Assembly: GCA_023145615.1 (NCBI GenBank)
Contig: JAGLDK010000019.1
Coordinates: 1-34,382, forward strand
Origin: Ichthyobacteriaceae bacterium
GTDB lineage: Bacteria; Bacteroidota; Bacteroidia; Flavobacteriales; JADGDT01
Direction: 5' to 3'
Length of the DNA stretch: 34,382 bases
This document shows, in pieces, positions 6,260 through 16,115 of the stretch (positions are counted from its first letter, which is position 1; each line of letters starts with the position of its first letter). Both the position numbers and the translations under genes were made by a program. The notes beneath the pieces were generated by a model. That model had not been told where the DNA came from. It saw only the letters and a list, made by a program, of their open reading frames with translations, and ran no database searches.

Positions 6260-7771
6260 ATGAAAAATATACTACTCCTTATTATACTACTACATATAGG
6301 TACAAATGTTTTTTGTCAGGACACAATAAAACAACCTATTACAAAGTTTTTTTATAAAGATGGAAGTTTGTCGAGCGAGGGAACTCTAATAGATGGGAAA
6401 CCCGATGGTTACTGGAAAACATATTATAAAAATGGAAAATTAAAATCGGAAGGTAACCGTGTTAACTATCAACTAAACAATAATTGGAAGTTCTACAACC
6501 AAGAAGGAGATATTACAAAGCAAATAATATATAAAAACGGAATACGTAACGGAAACGAAACTCATTATAATAAAGGGGTTTTAGCAGAGTTAATACCGTA
6601 TGTTAATAATATAAAAGAAGGTATATTATATAAGTATTTTAAAAGCGGAAACGTGCATTATCAAAAAAAATATGTAAATAATCAAGCATCGGGTAAGGCT
6701 TATGAGTTTGATGATAAGCACAACATTATTACAATAGAAACCTATAAACAAGGAGTATTAAATAAAATACAAAGAGTAAACCGTACTGATATAAAAGAAT
6801 TTAAACAAGGTTTGTGGGTTTGGTTTAATAAAAATAAGGTAATAATTAAACAAGGTACATTTACACATGGTGTAAAACATGGCTATTTTAAGTATTACGA
6901 TAGAAAAGGTAAATTGTTGAAAACCGAAAAGTATGTTAATGGAGAACTGCACGAAGACGCTGTAGAAACTGCAAAACTTGATATACGCAGAAGTTATTAT
7001 AGTAACAATAATATGTTGAAAAGCTATAATAGTTATAGAAAAGATAAAAAAGATGGAGTTCAGAAATTGTTTAATAATGAAGGAAAAGTTACATCAACCG
7101 AAATATATTATTTAGGAGTTTTAAGCTTTAAAGGTGGTGTAATTGATGATAAAGGAAAAAAACAAGGCGAATGGACTGAGTTTTATAGAAAAGGTGCCAA
7201 AAAATCGGAAGGAAGTTTCGAGGATAATAACAAATCAGGATTGTGGAAATATTATTACGAATCGGGTAATATTGAGCAAGAAGGAATTTACAAAAAAGGA
7301 AAAGCCACTAATAAATGGGTTTGGTATCATAATTCGGGTAAAGTACTTAGAGTAGGTTATTACATTTCGGGTAAAGAAAACGGAGAGTTTACAGAGTATG
7401 ATGCTAACGGTAAAATTGTATCGAAAGGAGAATATATAAATGGTAAACTATCGGGAGATTGGTTATATGTAAATGAGGATTATAAAATTTTTGGACGTTA
7501 TATTGATGGAAAAAAAGATGGTTTATGGACCGAAATAAATATGGTTAATAAAAATATTGTTTCGAAAGTAAATTATTATGAAGGCTATTTAAATAACACA
7601 TCAACTTACTATTATTTAAATGGAATAAAAAAAGCTGAAGGAAATTATACATCTGGCAAAAAACACAACAATTGGAATTATTATAATGAGCAAGGTGTAA
7701 AAACGGTTAAAGTATATTACAATAATGGAAAAGCAATTAAATACAATAACAAGCAGTTGAGCGAACTATAA
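6260..7771 (+). CDS. Secreted MORN-variant (YwqK-like) repeat protein
   Basis: A 503-residue protein with a clear signal peptide (MKNILLLIILLHIGTNVFC, cleavage near Q20). The rest is a run of about 17 repeats of roughly 23 residues with consensus G-x-W-x-x-Y-Y-x-x-G-K-x-x-x-E-G-x-Y, for example GYWKTYYKNGKLKSEG near 49. This is the MORN_2/YwqK-type repeat, which folds as a beta-meander. In databases such proteins often carry the name YwqK family antitoxin, but nothing here supports a toxin-antitoxin role. Periplasmic or surface exposure is expected. It is the first gene to the right of the repeat-rich tract and is followed by a hairpin at 7834-7861. Function unknown; a structural or binding role is the safest guess. 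Confidence 0.82.
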   Translation: MKNILLLIILLHIGTNVFCQDTIKQPITKFFYKDGSLSSEGTLIDGKPDGYWKTYYKNGKLKSEGNRVNYQLNNNWKFYNQEGDITKQIIYKNGIRNGNETHYNKGVLAELIPYVNNIKEGILYKYFKSGNVHYQKKYVNNQASGKAYEFDDKHNIITIETYKQGVLNKIQRVNRTDIKEFKQGLWVWFNKNKVIIKQGTFTHGVKHGYFKYYDRKGKLLKTEKYVNGELHEDAVETAKLDIRRSYYSNNNMLKSYNSYRKDKKDGVQKLFNNEGKVTSTEIYYLGVLSFKGGVIDDKGKKQGEWTEFYRKGAKKSEGSFEDNNKSGLWKYYYESGNIEQEGIYKKGKATNKWVWYHNSGKVLRVGYYISGKENGEFTEYDANGKIVSKGEYINGKLSGDWLYVNEDYKIFGRYIDGKKDGLWTEINMVNKNIVSKVNYYEGYLNNTSTYYYLNGIKKAEGNYTSGKKHNNWNYYNEQGVKTVKVYYNNGKAIKYNNKQLSEL

Positions 7772-8000: not shown

Positions 8001-9620
8001 ATGGACTTATTATTAAACCTTCTTGAAAAAGATTATTTTGTATTATTTCTGGTTATTGGGCTTGGAATTGCAATTGGAAAAATTAAAGTAAAAGGAATAT
8101 ATTTTGATATTTCGGCTGTAATATTTGTTGCTATATTTTTCGGATATTTATATAAACTTTTCGGAATTGAAGTTACCATACCAAGTATTGTACAACAAAT
8201 AGGTTTGGTATTATTTATATACACAATAGGAATGCAGGCAGGACCTACATTTTTCTCATCATTTAAATCTCAAGGATTAAAACTTATTGCATTAGCCGGA
8301 ATAACAGTTACTACGGGTGGTATTGTTGCCATGGTTATATCGTCAACAATGGGTGTTGAAATGGAAATGATGACTGGTTTATTAACCGGAGCACTTACAA
8401 GTACACCTGGTTTGGCTGCTGCTATTGAAGCTGCACAATCGCCGGTAGCATCAATAGGTTATGGAGTTGCTTATCCATTTGGAGTACTTGGAGTTATATT
8501 ATTTGTAAAGTTAAGTCCTAAGTTTTTTGGTATTGATATTAATAACGAAGAGAAAAAGTACAAAGATAAATCGGAGGCTAATATCTCCCCTATCAGTAAT
8601 AAAAACTTCATTATATCGAACGAAAATATTAACGGTAAAACTTTAGAAGAACTTAATATTAGATTTATGACTAAAGCTAATATTTCGAGAATAATGAAAC
8701 CTAATAAAGATTCGGTAGTTCCCGAACCTACTACTGTGCTTGAAATAGGAGATATGGTTAAGGCTGTAGGATCGGATAACGCACTTAAAAGAGTTGAAGT
8801 TTTACTAGGACATTCAACCGATATTAAAATTCCTAGAAGTGGAACTTACGAAATAAAAAGATATATAGTAAGTAATAAAAATGTTGTTAATAAAACAATA
8901 CAAGAACTTAACCTTTTAGATAATTACCTTGCAACTGCAACACGTATTAGAAGATCAGGAATTGACTTAATTGCTCGTCCATCAACAAGTTTAAGATACG
9001 GAGATAGAATATTGGTTTCGTGCTCTAAAGGTAACGTACCCGCAATAACAGAGCTGTTTGGCGATAGTTTAAAAACTGTTGAAGAAACAAGTTTTTTACC
9101 TGTTGCATTTGGTATTGTTATTGGTGTATTGGTTGGTAGTATTAGTTTTCCGTTAGGAAATTTTCATTTTAAATTGGGTTTAACTGGTGGTGTATTATTA
9201 TCGGCATTAGTATTAAGTTGGAAAGGAAAAACCGGACCAATAGTTTGGACTTTACCCGGAAATGCTAACCAAATATTACGTCAGTTTGGATTGTTACTTT
9301 TCTTAACCCCCGTTGGTTTAAAAGCAGGTACATCTCTACTACAAGCTATTGAAGAAAATGGAGCCATATTATTTGCATATGGTGCAGCAATTACTTTAAT
9401 ACCAATGATTACTACTGTAATATTCGGAAAATATATTTTCAAACTAAATTTCTTAACTATTTTAGGAACTTTAACCGGTGGTATGACATCAACACCAGGT
9501 TTAAGTGCTACCGATTCAATGACAGAATCGGACGCTCCACAGGTGGCATATGCTGCTGTTTATCCTTTTGCATTGGTTATAATTATTGTTATTGTTGAAG
9601 TAATGATGATATTTAAATAA
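8001..9620 (+). CDS. AspT/YidE/YbjL-type transporter with two internal TrkA_C domains (first of a pair)
   Basis: A 539-residue inner-membrane protein of the aspartate:alanine exchanger (AAE) family. Two homologous membrane halves (about 1-180 and 365-539) flank two cytosolic RCK_C/TrkA_C domains (about 201-272 and 284-358). Each half carries the family's signature: GLVLFIYTIGMQAGP (68-82) with TGALTSTPGLAAA (129-141) in the first, and GLLLFLTPVGLKAG (430-443) with TGGMTSTPGLSA (492-503) in the second. Length and order match AspT, YidE and YbjL. AspT exchanges aspartate for alanine, but the substrate here is unknown. A paralogue follows after 51 bp on the same strand, so the two are probably cotranscribed and might act together. 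Confidence 0.88.
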   Translation: MDLLLNLLEKDYFVLFLVIGLGIAIGKIKVKGIYFDISAVIFVAIFFGYLYKLFGIEVTIPSIVQQIGLVLFIYTIGMQAGPTFFSSFKSQGLKLIALAGITVTTGGIVAMVISSTMGVEMEMMTGLLTGALTSTPGLAAAIEAAQSPVASIGYGVAYPFGVLGVILFVKLSPKFFGIDINNEEKKYKDKSEANISPISNKNFIISNENINGKTLEELNIRFMTKANISRIMKPNKDSVVPEPTTVLEIGDMVKAVGSDNALKRVEVLLGHSTDIKIPRSGTYEIKRYIVSNKNVVNKTIQELNLLDNYLATATRIRRSGIDLIARPSTSLRYGDRILVSCSKGNVPAITELFGDSLKTVEETSFLPVAFGIVIGVLVGSISFPLGNFHFKLGLTGGVLLSALVLSWKGKTGPIVWTLPGNANQILRQFGLLLFLTPVGLKAGTSLLQAIEENGAILFAYGAAITLIPMITTVIFGKYIFKLNFLTILGTLTGGMTSTPGLSATDSMTESDAPQVAYAAVYPFALVIIIVIVEVMMIFK

Positions 9621-9671
9621 ACTATACTTAAAATTTAAGTTGTGTAAAAACAACTATTAAATTATATAATT

Positions 9672-11285
9672 ATGATTGAATTATTAACTGAAGAGTACTT
9701 TGTTTTATTCTTTATAATGGCAATTGGTATTGCTATTGGAAAGATTAAAATTAAAGGCATTGGATTAGATCAATCGGCTGTAATATTTGTTGCCATGATT
9801 ATTGGTATGATTTACGACAGATTTGGTATTCAATTTCAGTTTTCGGAAGTTATAAATAAATTTGGATTAGTACTATTTATTTACACAATAGGAATGCAAG
9901 CCGGACCATCGTTTTTTAAATCGTTTAAGGCATACGGTTATCAAACTTTTATATTAATTACGGGTATGTTAGTAATGGCAGCTATAGTATCTGTTAGCCT
10001 TGTATCGTTTTTCGACTTACATAAAGGTATGGCTGTAGGATTATTTACTGGTGCAATAACAAGCGCATCGGGTTTAGCTGCTGCTAGTGAGGTTTCAACT
10101 TCGCCTTATGTTAAAATTGGTTATGGTATTGCTTTTCCGGTTGGAATTATTACAATAATTGCATTTGTTAAAATGAGTGTTAAATTGTTTGGAGTAAATA
10201 TTAAAGACGAAGAAGAAAAATATAAATTAGATATTGAGGATCAAAATTACTCTATTGTAAACCGCCATTTTTCTGTTACTAACGAAAATGTTGATGGTAA
10301 AACCCTAAAAGAAATAGGATTACGAACTATTACACACTGTACATTAGCTAGAATAATGCGAGCTAATGGCGATTTAATAATTCCTTGTGATACTGCAATT
10401 TTATACACAGGAGATATTGTAAAGGTAGTTGGTAAATCAACCGACTTAGAAATGGTGTCGATGATAATTGGTCATGAAACAACTAAAAAAATACCTAGTT
10501 ACAAAAATTTCGAGTCTAAATGGTATGTAATTACCAATAGCCGTATTGTATCTCGATCTCTTAGAGAAATTGATTTAATGCAAAACTATACAGCTACAAT
10601 TACTCGTATCAGACGTGCAGGTATTGACATTACTCCTTATGCCGATTTTAAATTCAGATATGGAGATAAAATTATGATTTCATCGCCTAAAGAAAACGCA
10701 CGAGCTTTTTCTCAAATTTTCGGAAATAAATTAAGTAAGTTATCTGAAACCAGTTTTTTACCTGTTGCAATAGGTATTATTTTAGGAGTTTTACTTGGTA
10801 CAATTTCTTTTCCATTTTTAGGATTGAATATAAAATTAGGACTTACAGGTGGGGTACTTGTTATTTCAATATTAATGAGTTACAAAGGTAAAACTGGTCC
10901 AATTATTTGGAACCTTAATGCATCGGCAAATCAATTATTACGTCAGCTAGGGTTGCTATTATTCTTAATTCCGATAGGATTAGAACTTGGTAGCCAAATA
11001 ATAGATACGTTTTTGTTATACGGATTTAAACTATTTGTAGTTAGTTTCTTTATTACTTTAATTCCACTTGTTGTAACCACAATTATAGGAAAATATGTAC
11101 TTAAAATGAACTTTTTAGTTCTGTTAGGAGTAATAACCGGAGGAATGAATTCAACCCCCGGACTTACAGTAGCCGAAACCATGACTGAAACCGAAACACC
11201 ACAAATGGCTTATGCATCGGTGTATCCGTTTGGTTTGGTATTGATTATTGTAGTATCTCAGATTTTAGGTATGATAATGGGGTAG
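9672..11285 (+). CDS. AspT/YidE/YbjL-type transporter, second paralogue
   Basis: A 537-residue paralogue of the preceding gene with the same order: membrane half, two TrkA_C domains, membrane half. FGLVLFIYTIGMQAGPSFF (64-82) and the second-half GGMNSTPGL are kept. The first-half pore-like motif reads TGAITSASGLAAA (126-138) instead of TGALTSTPGLAAA, so the TP pair is replaced by AS. This suggests divergence in substrate or a non-equivalent role in a complex. The linker after the first half is charged (KDEEEKYKLDIED). It is separated by 51 bp from its neighbour, with no terminator seen between them. The substrate is unknown; a dicarboxylate or amino acid is the family-based expectation. Confidence 0.87.
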   Translation: MIELLTEEYFVLFFIMAIGIAIGKIKIKGIGLDQSAVIFVAMIIGMIYDRFGIQFQFSEVINKFGLVLFIYTIGMQAGPSFFKSFKAYGYQTFILITGMLVMAAIVSVSLVSFFDLHKGMAVGLFTGAITSASGLAAASEVSTSPYVKIGYGIAFPVGIITIIAFVKMSVKLFGVNIKDEEEKYKLDIEDQNYSIVNRHFSVTNENVDGKTLKEIGLRTITHCTLARIMRANGDLIIPCDTAILYTGDIVKVVGKSTDLEMVSMIIGHETTKKIPSYKNFESKWYVITNSRIVSRSLREIDLMQNYTATITRIRRAGIDITPYADFKFRYGDKIMISSPKENARAFSQIFGNKLSKLSETSFLPVAIGIILGVLLGTISFPFLGLNIKLGLTGGVLVISILMSYKGKTGPIIWNLNASANQLLRQLGLLLFLIPIGLELGSQIIDTFLLYGFKLFVVSFFITLIPLVVTTIIGKYVLKMNFLVLLGVITGGMNSTPGLTVAETMTETETPQMAYASVYPFGLVLIIVVSQILGMIMG

Positions 11286-11521: not shown

Positions 11522-13486
11522 TTAACCTTCAACTATTGGAATAGCACAAAAAATACTAGTACCCATTTTACTACTCGAAGAAATTTCCATTTCTCCATCC
11601 AATATTTTTACAAGAGTTTCTATTTCGAGCAAACCACTTTTATAATTTTTTTTATTGACATTAAACCCAATGCCATCATCTTCTATGTTGAAAGTAAACT
11701 CATTTTGGTGTCCTATTACTTCAATAAGTATTTCAGTTGCTTTAGAGTGCGTTATAGAGTTATTAACAGCTTCTTGAATTATTCTGTATATATGTAGTCG
11801 TTTCGATCTTTCTACCTTTTTAAAATCCAAAAAATCAATACTTATATCAATATCTGTTGTTGAATTAAGCTCGTCAATCATCAATTTTAAACTACTTTTT
11901 AATCCCGAAAATTTTAGGGTTTGATGAGATAGTTGATGAGATATAGTTCTTACATTATTATAAATTACAGATAAACTATCTGTAATACTTATATCGTTAA
12001 TAGGTGTACCTATTAGTAATTTATGTTCTACTTCATCAATACTATTTAAAACATTTACTTGAAGTTTTTGAGTAATTGAATTGTTAGTTTTATTTAATCC
12101 GCTTATGTATGAATTAAACATTAGGCGTTGATGATTATTTTTTTCGATTAATAACTTTTGTCTGAAAAACTCATTTTTTATTTCCTTATCAAATAAAGTT
12201 ACATTGAAAATTATTATTTCAATAAATGTACCAGTCATCATTAAATCATATTTTAATAAACTTCCAGGCAAATATCCTAATCCTATAAACATAATAACCA
12301 AAGCCCCTAGTATAGTTGGAGATAATGCAAGAAAAAATATATTTGACAGTGATTTTTTTTTATTTTTAACCAACAAAGCAACCAGTATAATTATCAACAA
12401 GTTAAAAACAGTTAAATAATAGTAAAATTTTATTACATATATTTTTTGTTCATCAATAGTATATATCCAAACTACTAGAGCTATAATGTATATGTACGAC
12501 ATTTTATCGAGTAGAAAATATAGCTTACTAAAAAAATCTTTAATTTTAAAAAAGTGTAAACTAAATCGTATAAACGAAAAAGTACTTATAAAATATAAAA
12601 CGTGTGTGTAGTTAAATATTTCAGGAATATTAGGATATACATATTCTGTTGTGTAGCCACGGTACGATAAAAACATTAACCATGTTGATGCAATATATAA
12701 AGTGTACATCAACACTTCTTTATTATTATAGGTAAAAGTAAGTATCATACCCATTAATATTGCAAGCATAACTACAATAAAAAATATTAGATGTATAATT
12801 TTTTTTACATCCATACTACTATTATAATAATTATTGGTTTGAATTTTTAAAGGAAAAGAAAGAGAATCGTTTATTTTTTTAATCTTTAGTATATAGGTTT
12901 CATTGCTGTTTGATGTTGCAGTTATGGGAAAAAATATTTGTCCTGATATAATTGTTCTTTCTTTTAATTTTAAATCAGTACCCGCAACAAATAGCTTATT
13001 AAAGCTACCATCGGGTTTGTAGTTATATAAAGTTACCTTGTGTATGTTTGGTGTTTCCGAACTTATTACATAATCAACATCCTCATTAACATTATTCTTA
13101 ATATTAAACACCACCCAGTAATAATCTTTATTAAAACCTCGGGTTGATTTATTATCAACTTTATATATGCTTCCTGAAGCTATTTTATTGGCAACCTCCA
13201 AAATTCCATAATCAACATCCGATTTATAAACATTGGTATAACTATTAAAATTTTCTTTATTAAAATCGGCATTTTCAATAACAAAACCGTTACTAGGTTG
13301 GGGTATTTTATTGGCGTAAATATTTGTACTAAAAAGTATAAGCACTAATGCTATATAAATTTTAAAAATACTATAAGCCTTATAATTTGATTTTATACTT
13401 GAATATTTTTTAAATATATCTAACAACAATACTTTAATATTAGTATAAATATATGTTACAAGTAGTAGTGTAATTTGCTTAATCAT
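11522..13486 (-). CDS. 7TM-DISM sensor protein with a degenerate histidine kinase core (no phospho-acceptor His)
   Basis: A 654-residue protein: N-terminal hydrophobic signal (about 43-58), periplasmic 7TMR-DISMED2-like domain (about 65-225, with STRGFNKDYYWVVF at 114-127), seven-helix membrane region (about 229-432) and a HisKA_3/HATPase-type core. The dimerisation helix 1, which should read ELHDN, reads KLQVN (474-478), so Gln476 replaces the histidine. Helix 2 is canonical (VRTISHQLSHQTL, 512-524). The ATPase has an intact N box (IQEAVNNS, 570-577) and G1 box (DDGIGF, 603-608), but the G2 region (SSKMGTSIF) is weak. It starts with ATG 8 bp inside the upstream kinase gene, so translation is probably coupled. 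It is likely a pseudokinase partner of that protein; a heterodimer is inference. Confidence 0.85.
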   Translation of the reverse strand: MIKQITLLLVTYIYTNIKVLLLDIFKKYSSIKSNYKAYSIFKIYIALVLILFSTNIYANKIPQPSNGFVIENADFNKENFNSYTNVYKSDVDYGILEVANKIASGSIYKVDNKSTRGFNKDYYWVVFNIKNNVNEDVDYVISSETPNIHKVTLYNYKPDGSFNKLFVAGTDLKLKERTIISGQIFFPITATSNSNETYILKIKKINDSLSFPLKIQTNNYYNSSMDVKKIIHLIFFIVVMLAILMGMILTFTYNNKEVLMYTLYIASTWLMFLSYRGYTTEYVYPNIPEIFNYTHVLYFISTFSFIRFSLHFFKIKDFFSKLYFLLDKMSYIYIIALVVWIYTIDEQKIYVIKFYYYLTVFNLLIIILVALLVKNKKKSLSNIFFLALSPTILGALVIMFIGLGYLPGSLLKYDLMMTGTFIEIIIFNVTLFDKEIKNEFFRQKLLIEKNNHQRLMFNSYISGLNKTNNSITQKLQVNVLNSIDEVEHKLLIGTPINDISITDSLSVIYNNVRTISHQLSHQTLKFSGLKSSLKLMIDELNSTTDIDISIDFLDFKKVERSKRLHIYRIIQEAVNNSITHSKATEILIEVIGHQNEFTFNIEDDGIGFNVNKKNYKSGLLEIETLVKILDGEMEISSSSKMGTSIFCAIPIVEG

Positions 13487-15329
13487 AAGTATTAATTTTA
13501 GAGTATAACGAAACGGTAGTTCCTTTACCTAAAACAGAGTTTATTGATAAAATTCCATCTATTTTTTCGGCTCTATTTTTCATATTTTTAATACCATTAC
13601 TGTTGTAATTTAATTTGTCGGTTTTAAATCCAACACCATCATCCGAAACAACAACTTCAAGTTCGTTATTTTTTTGTTGAGCAAATATTGTAATATTATT
13701 AGCGTTCGAATATTTTATAGCATTAGTAATAGCCTCTTGTATAATACGTATTACCTGAAGTGTAAAGGTGCCTTTAATGTTATCAATGTTATTGCTATTT
13801 AATGTTATGTTTATATCGGATATGTTATTTAGTTTAGCTACTACTAGCTCAATATTATGGAGTAAACTATTTGTTAATTCGGTATTTCGGGTTAAACTTT
13901 CCGACAAAGATTTAACTTTATCTTTTATAATATTTAGTTCGGAAATTATAATTTCCGAATTATTATATTTTTTAAGCATAGCCAACCTACTTCCAATATT
14001 ATCGTGCAATTCTTCTGATATTGTACTTCGTATATTTTCAATTCCTTCTGAATAAGCAACAAGCATCATTTTTTCGTTTCCTGTACTTTCAAGTAATAAT
14101 ATTTCTCGTTGTTTATTATTTGAATTTACGTTACTTAAAACTGCCATCATGTATATTAAAAACTCAATTAATGTACCTAATAGCGTAGGTTCGTAATACA
14201 AAATTTTTGCTGAAATTATTGATATTCCAGATAATATAGTTAGCAACCCTCCTATTAAAAGAGGTAAAAATGAAATGAAAAAAACATATGATGGTTTATG
14301 TTTTTTAATCATCATATAAATTAATATTAATAAAATACCTACTAAGTGTATAATAATAGAAATGTATAGTATTCTAAAAATATAGAATTTAAAAAACATT
14401 GGTAAAGCCATGGAAACAATAAATCCAATAATATATACTTTAGTTATTCTTTTCAACCATTTATATATTACTTTAAACTTTACTTTTATTTGTAAAAATG
14501 AAATAGAAAAGTAATTAAAACTAGCCATTACCAAAAATAATACATTTTTGAAATAGAAATTTAAATAAGGTGCATTAGGATAAAAATAGTAATAAGCATA
14601 ACTTTTATAAACAGCATATAACACTATCATTGTAATGCCATAAAGTCCGTATGCAATAAATAAATTATGTTTTAAAATACCCCCCATTATAAAGCTCATA
14701 ATTACAAATACAAACATTAAAACAAAAAATACTGCGTAGTAAAAATTAGTAGATTTATCTTTTAAAGTATAATTAAGCTTGTTGTACAAATTTAATTGAA
14801 ACGATAAAGTATCGTTAAGCTTAACTATTTTTATAACATAAGTTTTACTTGTTTTATGCTTTAAATTAATAGGAAACATAATTTGTTGAGTTTTAACTCT
14901 TCTTTCCTTTAACTTTATATTTGTTCCGGTGTATTGTAATGTATCAGTTATAAAATTTATGTTATACAATATTGCCTCATCAATATTTGTGGTAGTATTA
15001 CGTATTACAAATTCAGTATCATTACTATTATTTTGTAACTTAAAAAACACCCAATAATAACTTCTGTTAAAACCTCTTGATGGTAAATTATTAACGGGTA
15101 AAATTTCGTTATTTTCTATTTTTTTAAGTAAATCTGCTAACTCATAATTTACATCTGATTTATAAACAATAGTACTTTCGTTTATTGATAAAGTTTCTGT
15201 ATCGTTATAAATTTTAAGAGGTTTAATATTTAATATAGGAGTTTCGGAATGTGCTATTTTGGTTAAAAACAGAACAATTAAAAGAAGTAAATATTTATAT
15301 TTCAAAATTAGTTTTTGTATAAGTTGCAA
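13479..15329 (-). CDS. 7TM-DISM sensor histidine kinase, HisKA_3 type
   Basis: A 616-residue paralogue of the downstream gene, with the same layout: signal segment (12-28), 7TMR-DISMED2-like domain (about 35-190, with SRGFNRSYYWVFF at 84-96), seven membrane helices (about 196-400) and a kinase core. The phospho-acceptor is H442 in EELHDNIGSRL. The N box IQEAITNAI (530-538), G1 DDGVGF (563-568) and G2 GKGTT (601-605) are intact. The frame has no ATG near the start: it opens with TTG at 15329, and a second TTG eight codons later (15305) also gives a good signal peptide. The frame is closed by a stop at 15360-15362. The presumed partner is the NarL-type regulator encoded just upstream. The sensed ligand is unknown; DISMED2 domains are thought to bind carbohydrates. 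Confidence 0.88.
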   Translation of the reverse strand: MQLIQKLILKYKYLLLLIVLFLTKIAHSETPILNIKPLKIYNDTETLSINESTIVYKSDVNYELADLLKKIENNEILPVNNLPSRGFNRSYYWVFFKLQNNSNDTEFVIRNTTTNIDEAILYNINFITDTLQYTGTNIKLKERRVKTQQIMFPINLKHKTSKTYVIKIVKLNDTLSFQLNLYNKLNYTLKDKSTNFYYAVFFVLMFVFVIMSFIMGGILKHNLFIAYGLYGITMIVLYAVYKSYAYYYFYPNAPYLNFYFKNVLFLVMASFNYFSISFLQIKVKFKVIYKWLKRITKVYIIGFIVSMALPMFFKFYIFRILYISIIIHLVGILLILIYMMIKKHKPSYVFFISFLPLLIGGLLTILSGISIISAKILYYEPTLLGTLIEFLIYMMAVLSNVNSNNKQREILLLESTGNEKMMLVAYSEGIENIRSTISEELHDNIGSRLAMLKKYNNSEIIISELNIIKDKVKSLSESLTRNTELTNSLLHNIELVVAKLNNISDINITLNSNNIDNIKGTFTLQVIRIIQEAITNAIKYSNANNITIFAQQKNNELEVVVSDDGVGFKTDKLNYNSNGIKNMKNRAEKIDGILSINSVLGKGTTVSLYSKINTYD

Positions 15330-15376: not shown

Positions 15377-15428
15377 AAACAAAGTTCGCAAACAGCTTAT
15401 TTTATTAAGTTGTTTGCGAACTTTGTTT
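15377..15428. terminator. 22-bp-stem hairpin between response regulator and kinase genes
   Basis: The arms at 15377-15398 and 15407-15428 pair at 21 of 22 positions (the other is G-T) over an 8-nt loop. On the plus strand TTTTTAATATTT overlaps and follows the right arm. In the gene direction (minus) only GTTTATTTAC follows, so it may be a leaky terminator or attenuator that lowers kinase expression relative to the regulator. Confidence 0.65.
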
Positions 15429-15470: not shown

Positions 15471-16115
15471 TTATGTCGAAATAGGTATCATACCTGATAA
15501 TATATTTTCTTTAAGTACAAAAGAAATCATTTCGGACGTAGTACTAACATTAAGTTTTTTTCTGATGTTTTTACGGTGTCTATCAACAGTATGACGGCTA
15601 ATATTTAGCTCCTCTCCTATTTTAATAGAATTTTCGCCATTAATTAAAAGTCTTAAAATTTGTTCTTCTCTGTTGGTTATTTTTAATTTGTAAGCAACAT
15701 CGCCAGCTCCTTTTTCAGTTTCTAACTTAAGATTATTACCAACATAAAACTTTTTGTTTTTATTAACAAAACCAATAACATCATAAAGTTCATCAACGCT
15801 TGCATCTTTCGATAGGTATGCGTTAGCTCCAAATCGCTTCGATTTTTTTATAACCTCGCTATCTTTATACATACTAAGTACCGAGATATATGGTTTAATA
15901 TTTAAATGTTTTAAAGATTCTAAAACATCAAAACCCGAAATTTCAGGCATATTTAAATCTAAAAAAACAATATCAGGTTTTGTTAAAGGCAATTTTTCAA
16001 TAGCTTCTTTTCCCGAATAAATAATATCTACACTAGATACAGTATCGTTTTTTTGAAGAATACCTTGCAAGCCTTGGGCAAATAGGCTTTGGTCGTCTAC
16101 AATTGTAATTTTCAT
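15471..16115 (-). CDS. NarL/FixJ-family response regulator (REC plus LuxR HTH)
   Basis: A 214-residue two-component regulator. The receiver domain (1-120) has the acidic pair D7-D8, phospho-acceptor D53 in FLDLNMPE, S81 at the switch position and K103 in LSKD. The LuxR-type helix-turn-helix (about 142-203) reads ITNREEQILRLL and IGEELNISRHTVDRHRKNIRKKLNV. The protein is expected to dimerise and bind DNA when phosphorylated by the neighbouring 7TM-DISM kinase. The kinase genes follow 141 bp downstream on the same strand, separated by a strong hairpin. Upstream, 79 bp separates it from cvpA. A -7-like TATATTTG lies at 16139-16146 on the minus strand. Target genes cannot be read from the window. 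Confidence 0.92.
   Translation of the reverse strand: MKITIVDDQSLFAQGLQGILQKNDTVSSVDIIYSGKEAIEKLPLTKPDIVFLDLNMPEISGFDVLESLKHLNIKPYISVLSMYKDSEVIKKSKRFGANAYLSKDASVDELYDVIGFVNKNKKFYVGNNLKLETEKGAGDVAYKLKITNREEQILRLLINGENSIKIGEELNISRHTVDRHRKNIRKKLNVSTTSEMISFVLKENILSGMIPIST

Follow-up and report, generated by a model that had tools for sequence, protein, structure and literature searches.

Sensor kinases are homodimers as a rule. The window, the whole 34,382-nt stretch of DNA analyzed here, encodes two adjacent and related 7TM-DISM sensor kinases, K1 and K2, the latter of which carries glutamine in place of the phospho-acceptor histidine. This arrangement raises the question of whether K2 is a decaying copy, one half of a kinase that works only as a mixed dimer, or a subunit that acts through its neighbor. 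The initial annotation proposed an obligate heterodimer, with each chain supplying what its partner is missing. The best explanation in our view, to which we give a probability of roughly 0.45, is that an old tandem duplication produced the pair and that K2 is a pseudo-histidine kinase paired with K1, phosphate passing only via H442 of K1.

The K1 and K2 ORFs and their coordinates were borne out by the ORF list of the window (Table 1), and the 8-bp overlap of the two genes, already claimed in the initial annotation, was read directly in the bases. Both proteins exceed the Pfam cut-offs for 7TMR-DISM_7TM (61.9 bits in K1 and 71.1 in K2, cut-off 29), 7TMR-DISMED2 (47.2 and 50.7, cut-off 22) and HATPase_c; each is a complete 7TM-DISM receptor whose kinase core is of the DesK type. 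The HisKA_3 model gave 12 bits for K1 (cut-off 24) and no match for K2 at an E-value of 1; this model is a weak test because even K1 is missed, and the DesK-like label of K1 comes from its box and fold instead. The start codons of both genes are uncertain; TTG alone is given for K1 in the ORF list, and the ATG of K2 yields an unusually long N-terminus. The adjacent NarL/LuxR-type response regulator, in which D53 lies within LDLNMP when counted on the translation, is the probable partner. The genome is a 2.1 Mb draft of 68% completeness, and its sole other 7TM-DISM match is on a different contig.

Table 1. Features of the K1/K2 locus (positions in the window).
Feature	Position	Strand	Description
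K2	11522-13486	minus	654 aa; K1 paralog with the same domains, DHp with KLQVN
K2 Q476 codon CAA	12059-12061	minus	phospho-acceptor place, in TQKLQVN; next codon V, not D
K1	13479-15329	minus	616 aa, TTG start; 7TM-DISM receptor, DISMED2 sensor, DHp with ELHDN, HATPase_c
K1/K2 overlap	13479-13486	minus	8 bases ATGATTAA, end of K1 and start of K2
K1 H442 codon CAC	14004-14006	minus	phospho-acceptor His, in SEELHDN
Hairpin	15379-15426		within the 141 bases that separate the regulator from K1
NarL/LuxR-type response regulator	15471-16115	minus	receiver and HTH domains

The conserved boxes of K1 and K2 were compared with those of 25 outside kinases, which were left of 46 kinase-like ORFs matched at E up to 1e-8 once 21 had been dropped as repeats, seven loci holding the window itself having been excluded beforehand. 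Boxes were scored with a position-specific score built from these outsiders. The acceptor histidine and the following aspartate are present in all 25 related kinases of the alignment, and LHD was also found in 5/5 further relatives fetched later; K2 has glutamine and valine at these positions. The codons confirmed the two residues on which the initial annotation had been built, H442 in EELHDN of K1 and Gln476 in KLQVN of K2. The helix-1 box of K2 has a lower score than any of the 25 outsiders (z = -4.5), and that of K1 is ordinary (below 19/25). The initial annotation had named a read error at the Q476 codon as a possible source of the glutamine. Where K1 has CAC GAT, K2 has CAA GTA, and the codons before the leucine are GAA GAA in K1 versus CAA AAA in K2. 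As the neighboring codons differ too, a single miscalled base cannot give the K2 box, which rules out this explanation. The LHD box of DesK/NarX-type (HisKA_3) kinases is thus present in K1 (ELHDN) and replaced by LQV in K2, and we do not class K2 as an active kinase on this basis. The charges of the first helices (-1 in K1 and +2 in K2, compared with -3 to +3 among the 25 outsiders) gave no signal of complementarity.

The nucleotide-binding boxes are better preserved in K2 than its phospho-acceptor box. The E and N of the N box, the D, G and G of the G1 box and the G of the G2 box each occur in 25/25 outsiders, and all of them are retained in K2, whose N-box score is ordinary; the N and G1 boxes are therefore kept, as had been claimed. 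In contrast, the G2 arginine, found in 24 of the outsiders and replaced by leucine in the remaining one, is absent from K2. The earlier description of this G2 box as weak is overstated: the arginine is lost and the score is low, but the glycine is kept and the score stays within the range of the outsiders (below 22/25). The loss of the arginine casts doubt on ATP turnover by K2, and the loss of H and D together with the retention of the nucleotide-binding residues would fit a subunit that still binds ATP. K1 has H, D and all of the nucleotide-binding residues checked, and thus appears to be an intact sensor kinase with no clear catalytic defect in its sequence.

The second DHp helix shows the opposite pattern. 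The helix-2 core of K1 scores below all 25 outsiders (z = -2.7) and a longer segment below 24 of them (z = -2.2). The K2 motif is normal (below 7/25), in agreement with the initial annotation, which had called this helix canonical. The reciprocal helix pattern of K1 and K2 is real as a pattern. The statement of the same annotation that K1 has lost its canonical second helix goes too far; its score does fall below those of all the outsiders, but the core retains V, S and L with K replacing R, residues about 458-503 are predicted to form a continuous helix (block pLDDT about 68-90), and the corresponding DesK segment scores lower still (4.5 versus 8.8 for K1). DesK has a HisKA_3-type DHp and works as a homodimer; it has been solved alone, phosphorylated and in complex with its regulator, according to the PDB titles. 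DesK chains were the top fold matches for both core models and would be their nearest solved fold; DesK itself is a single kinase with a different sensor. However, the core models rest on two sequences and have a mean pLDDT of 73 for K1 and 55 for K2, the latter being too weak to be read beyond the order of elements. As a pseudo-histidine kinase, K2 has lost the acceptor and retains the fold in a low-confidence prediction.

These results bear directly on the obligate heterodimer, in which K1 would give the histidine, K2 the working second helix, and both homodimers would be inactive. The helix-2 core of K1 and helix 1 of K2 each lie below all 25 outsiders while their counterparts are normal, both kinase cores sit on equally long branches (see below), and FasB/FasC are reported, in the part of the source available, as heterodimers and not homodimers. 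However, because DesK scores lower than K1 on the helix-2 core and the K1 helix is modeled as continuous, the departure of the K1 motif does not show a need for the other chain; moreover, the nucleotide-binding residues of K1 are all there. We consider this reading unlikely. Its evolutionary form, a split sensor kinase in which tandem duplication was followed by reciprocal DHp loss, leaving the histidine helix in one chain and the canonical helix 2 in the other so that the mixed dimer alone signals, is distinctly unlikely; if it were true, two versions of one 7TM-DISM sensor would have to be read together. Since its His, Asp and nucleotide residues are present and its helix 2 is no worse than that of DesK, K1 may well work as a homodimer. 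It can probably also work alone, so that the pair need not be obligate. Of the earlier inference, the notion that the two proteins act together is likely in view of their sister relation and gene overlap, whereas obligate mutual complementation is unsupported, K1 being complete.

As K2 has lost the acceptor, we compared its history with that of K1. The two proteins share 30% identity across 608 aligned positions. A maximum-likelihood tree built from 15 full-length proteins, 18 rows less L028, L057 and the second kinase of L033, joined them as sisters with 100/100 support and gave end branches of 1.10 and 1.15. The sister relation recurred in trees of the sensor and kinase parts (SH-aLRT 99 and 92, respectively), which comprised 16 rows without the most distant ones (L018, L031, L033, L056, L057 and L028); the sensor part gave end branches of 1.55 and 1.39, the kinase part 2.29 and 2.26. 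The trees gave warnings of unusual composition in the K1 and K2 rows and of long branches meeting, and the rates and the K1-K2 join are uncertain because of these long branches and the odd composition of both kinase cores. Given end branches of nearly the same length, K2 has not been decaying at a higher rate than K1.

The reading frame of K2 was also compared with chance. Its 654 codons contain no stop in DNA of 25% GC, whereas shuffles keeping the codon-position composition contained 33 stops on average and 0/2000 were stop-free. K2 as a pseudogene was rejected on the open frame against 33 expected stops, a branch like that of K1 and the conserved N and G1 boxes. For the same reasons it is highly improbable that K2 is a functionless relic, even though it has lost the phospho-acceptor and the G2 arginine and has no ortholog in any of the samples searched. 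K2 instead looks maintained, as a retained pseudo-histidine kinase rather than a decaying copy.

The nearest outside relatives of K1 and K2 are single kinases that match along most of their length at roughly 20-25% identity. In 12/12 relatives examined in the nearest clade (L052, L053, L067-L071 and L072-L076), the single kinase has a regulator, recognized visually or from a short motif, immediately upstream, which is the same order as that of the regulator and K1 here. The simplest history would start from a regulator-kinase pair in which the gene of the 7TM-DISM sensor kinase underwent an old tandem duplication.

Because they are sister paralogs with overlapping genes and about equal branches, and because K2 retains residues that bind nucleotide but lacks those that accept phosphate, K1 and K2 probably function jointly, as a mixed pair. 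We suppose that they pair through their DHp helices and that all phosphate would flow via H442 of K1 to the adjacent NarL-type regulator. K2 would tune K1 and bring in a second, slightly different sensor; H442 of K1 may in addition receive phosphate in trans from the ATP-binding domain of K2. As only gene overlap and kinship tie K2 to K1, K2 could conceivably act apart from it, for instance as the partner of a different cellular kinase or as a receptor that binds ATP, but the 8-base overlap, like the sister relation, favors a local partner, and we regard this as very unlikely.

This type of system is already known from the parallels of FasB/FasC, RetS/GacS and DivL, and the tandem 7TM-DISM version in which the downstream member has lost H and D is a variant of it. 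No tandem 7TM-DISM pair of the K1/K2 kind was found in searches of an open-licence library of papers. Pairs with one acceptor-less chain show how gene duplication can turn a two-component into a three-component system, and such natural pairs make it simple to ask, with no need for mutations, which histidine receives its phosphate from the ATP domain of which chain.

RetS, which we take to be a 7TM-DISM-class sensor, is described in the accessible part of its source as an inhibitor of GacS that acts in a heterodimer. It thereby resembles the proposed K1/K2 pair in modulating a second kinase by heterodimerization, but RetS and GacS are hybrid or unorthodox kinases, whereas K1 and K2 are adjacent tandem paralogs with short DesK-type cores. 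DivL has Tyr as its acceptor and is not a tandem paralog of its partner. As far as the available text goes, it has a histidine kinase fold without kinase activity that has been repurposed and binds DivK~P by its regulator-docking face; it is thus like K2 as a pseudo-histidine kinase working through others, but has PAS sensors, unlike K2 (PMC4211667). These two systems, together with the normal helix 2 of K2, speak for an inhibitory or reverse-acting K2, which would either block K1 in the manner of RetS-GacS or bind the phosphorylated regulator and report back in the manner of DivL. Sequence does not separate activation from inhibition, but the retained nucleotide residues would be needless for pure blocking, and we regard this role as somewhat unlikely.

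Among published systems, the best parallel to the preferred reading, a pseudo-histidine kinase paired with K1, is FasB/FasC, which belongs to the three-component system FasBCA. As described in the portion of the report at hand, these are adjacent kinase-like membrane sensors with a response regulator, and two-hybrid assays detected heterodimerization and no homodimers; H246 of FasC is required, the FasC kinase domain is dispensable, and one partner is proposed to be a pseudokinase (PMC12675982). K1 and K2 are likewise two adjacent kinase-like sensors with a response regulator, although a hairpin lies between the regulator and K1 here. The two pairs also differ in that FasB/FasC have six predicted transmembrane segments, no 7TM-DISM being named in that portion of the report, and in that FasC bears the required His while its own kinase domain is dispensable, whereas K1 has both His and nucleotide residues (PMC12675982). 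K2, in turn, is without His, Asp and the G2 arginine. In Corynebacterium, native ChrS and HrrS are reported to form heterodimers and a frameshifted ChrS pseudokinase is described, and no significant heterodimerization is given for truncated ChrS in the part of the study available (PMC9491836).

Among the samples searched, the K1-K2 pair is known from one genome. No ortholog was found in the other two genomes of the genus, which are 97 and 99% complete and where no match came near the ortholog level, or in 60 relatives, 395 genomes of the order (including that of the window), 395 of the class, 395 of the phylum, 9 of the order of G447 and 128 of the order of G981. As these samples overlap and were drawn evenly rather than completely, absence of orthologs is not proven. 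Pattern scans of genome and viral contigs, which depend on short peptides matched almost exactly and would overlook relatives of 25% identity, confirmed no relative, and phage and plasmid collections gave distant matches only. Four other neighboring 7TM-DISM pairs, in G053, G118, G086 and G195, were picked by eye among the matches listed. In G053, G086 and G195, each member appears by eye to retain a histidine box of its own kind. In G118 (L028 4465-8780), the upstream ORF consists of a 7TM part and a receiver with no kinase seen by eye, and a larger 7TM hybrid kinase lies just downstream. A 7TM-DISM kinase and a 1013-aa kinase are in tandem before a regulator in G255 (L033 4781-9706), both keeping LHD. 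Since other pairs keep their His boxes, as judged by eye, loss of H is not general in such pairs. The kinase ends of the G255 tandem look nearly identical.

The gap between the regulator and K1 contains a long, near-perfect hairpin of -28 kcal/mol (z = -9.85 versus shuffles). It is terminator- or attenuator-like and may uncouple expression of the regulator from that of the kinases; because of this strong hairpin, their co-expression is not certain. A weaker sequence resembling it is present on contig C24 of the same genome. Convergent to the kinases, positions 8001-11285 of the window encode tandem Asp-Al_Ex/TrkA_C transporters of 539 and 537 aa, another adjoining pair of paralogs, and positions 6260-7771 encode a 503-aa protein with a whole-protein match to MORN_2 repeats.
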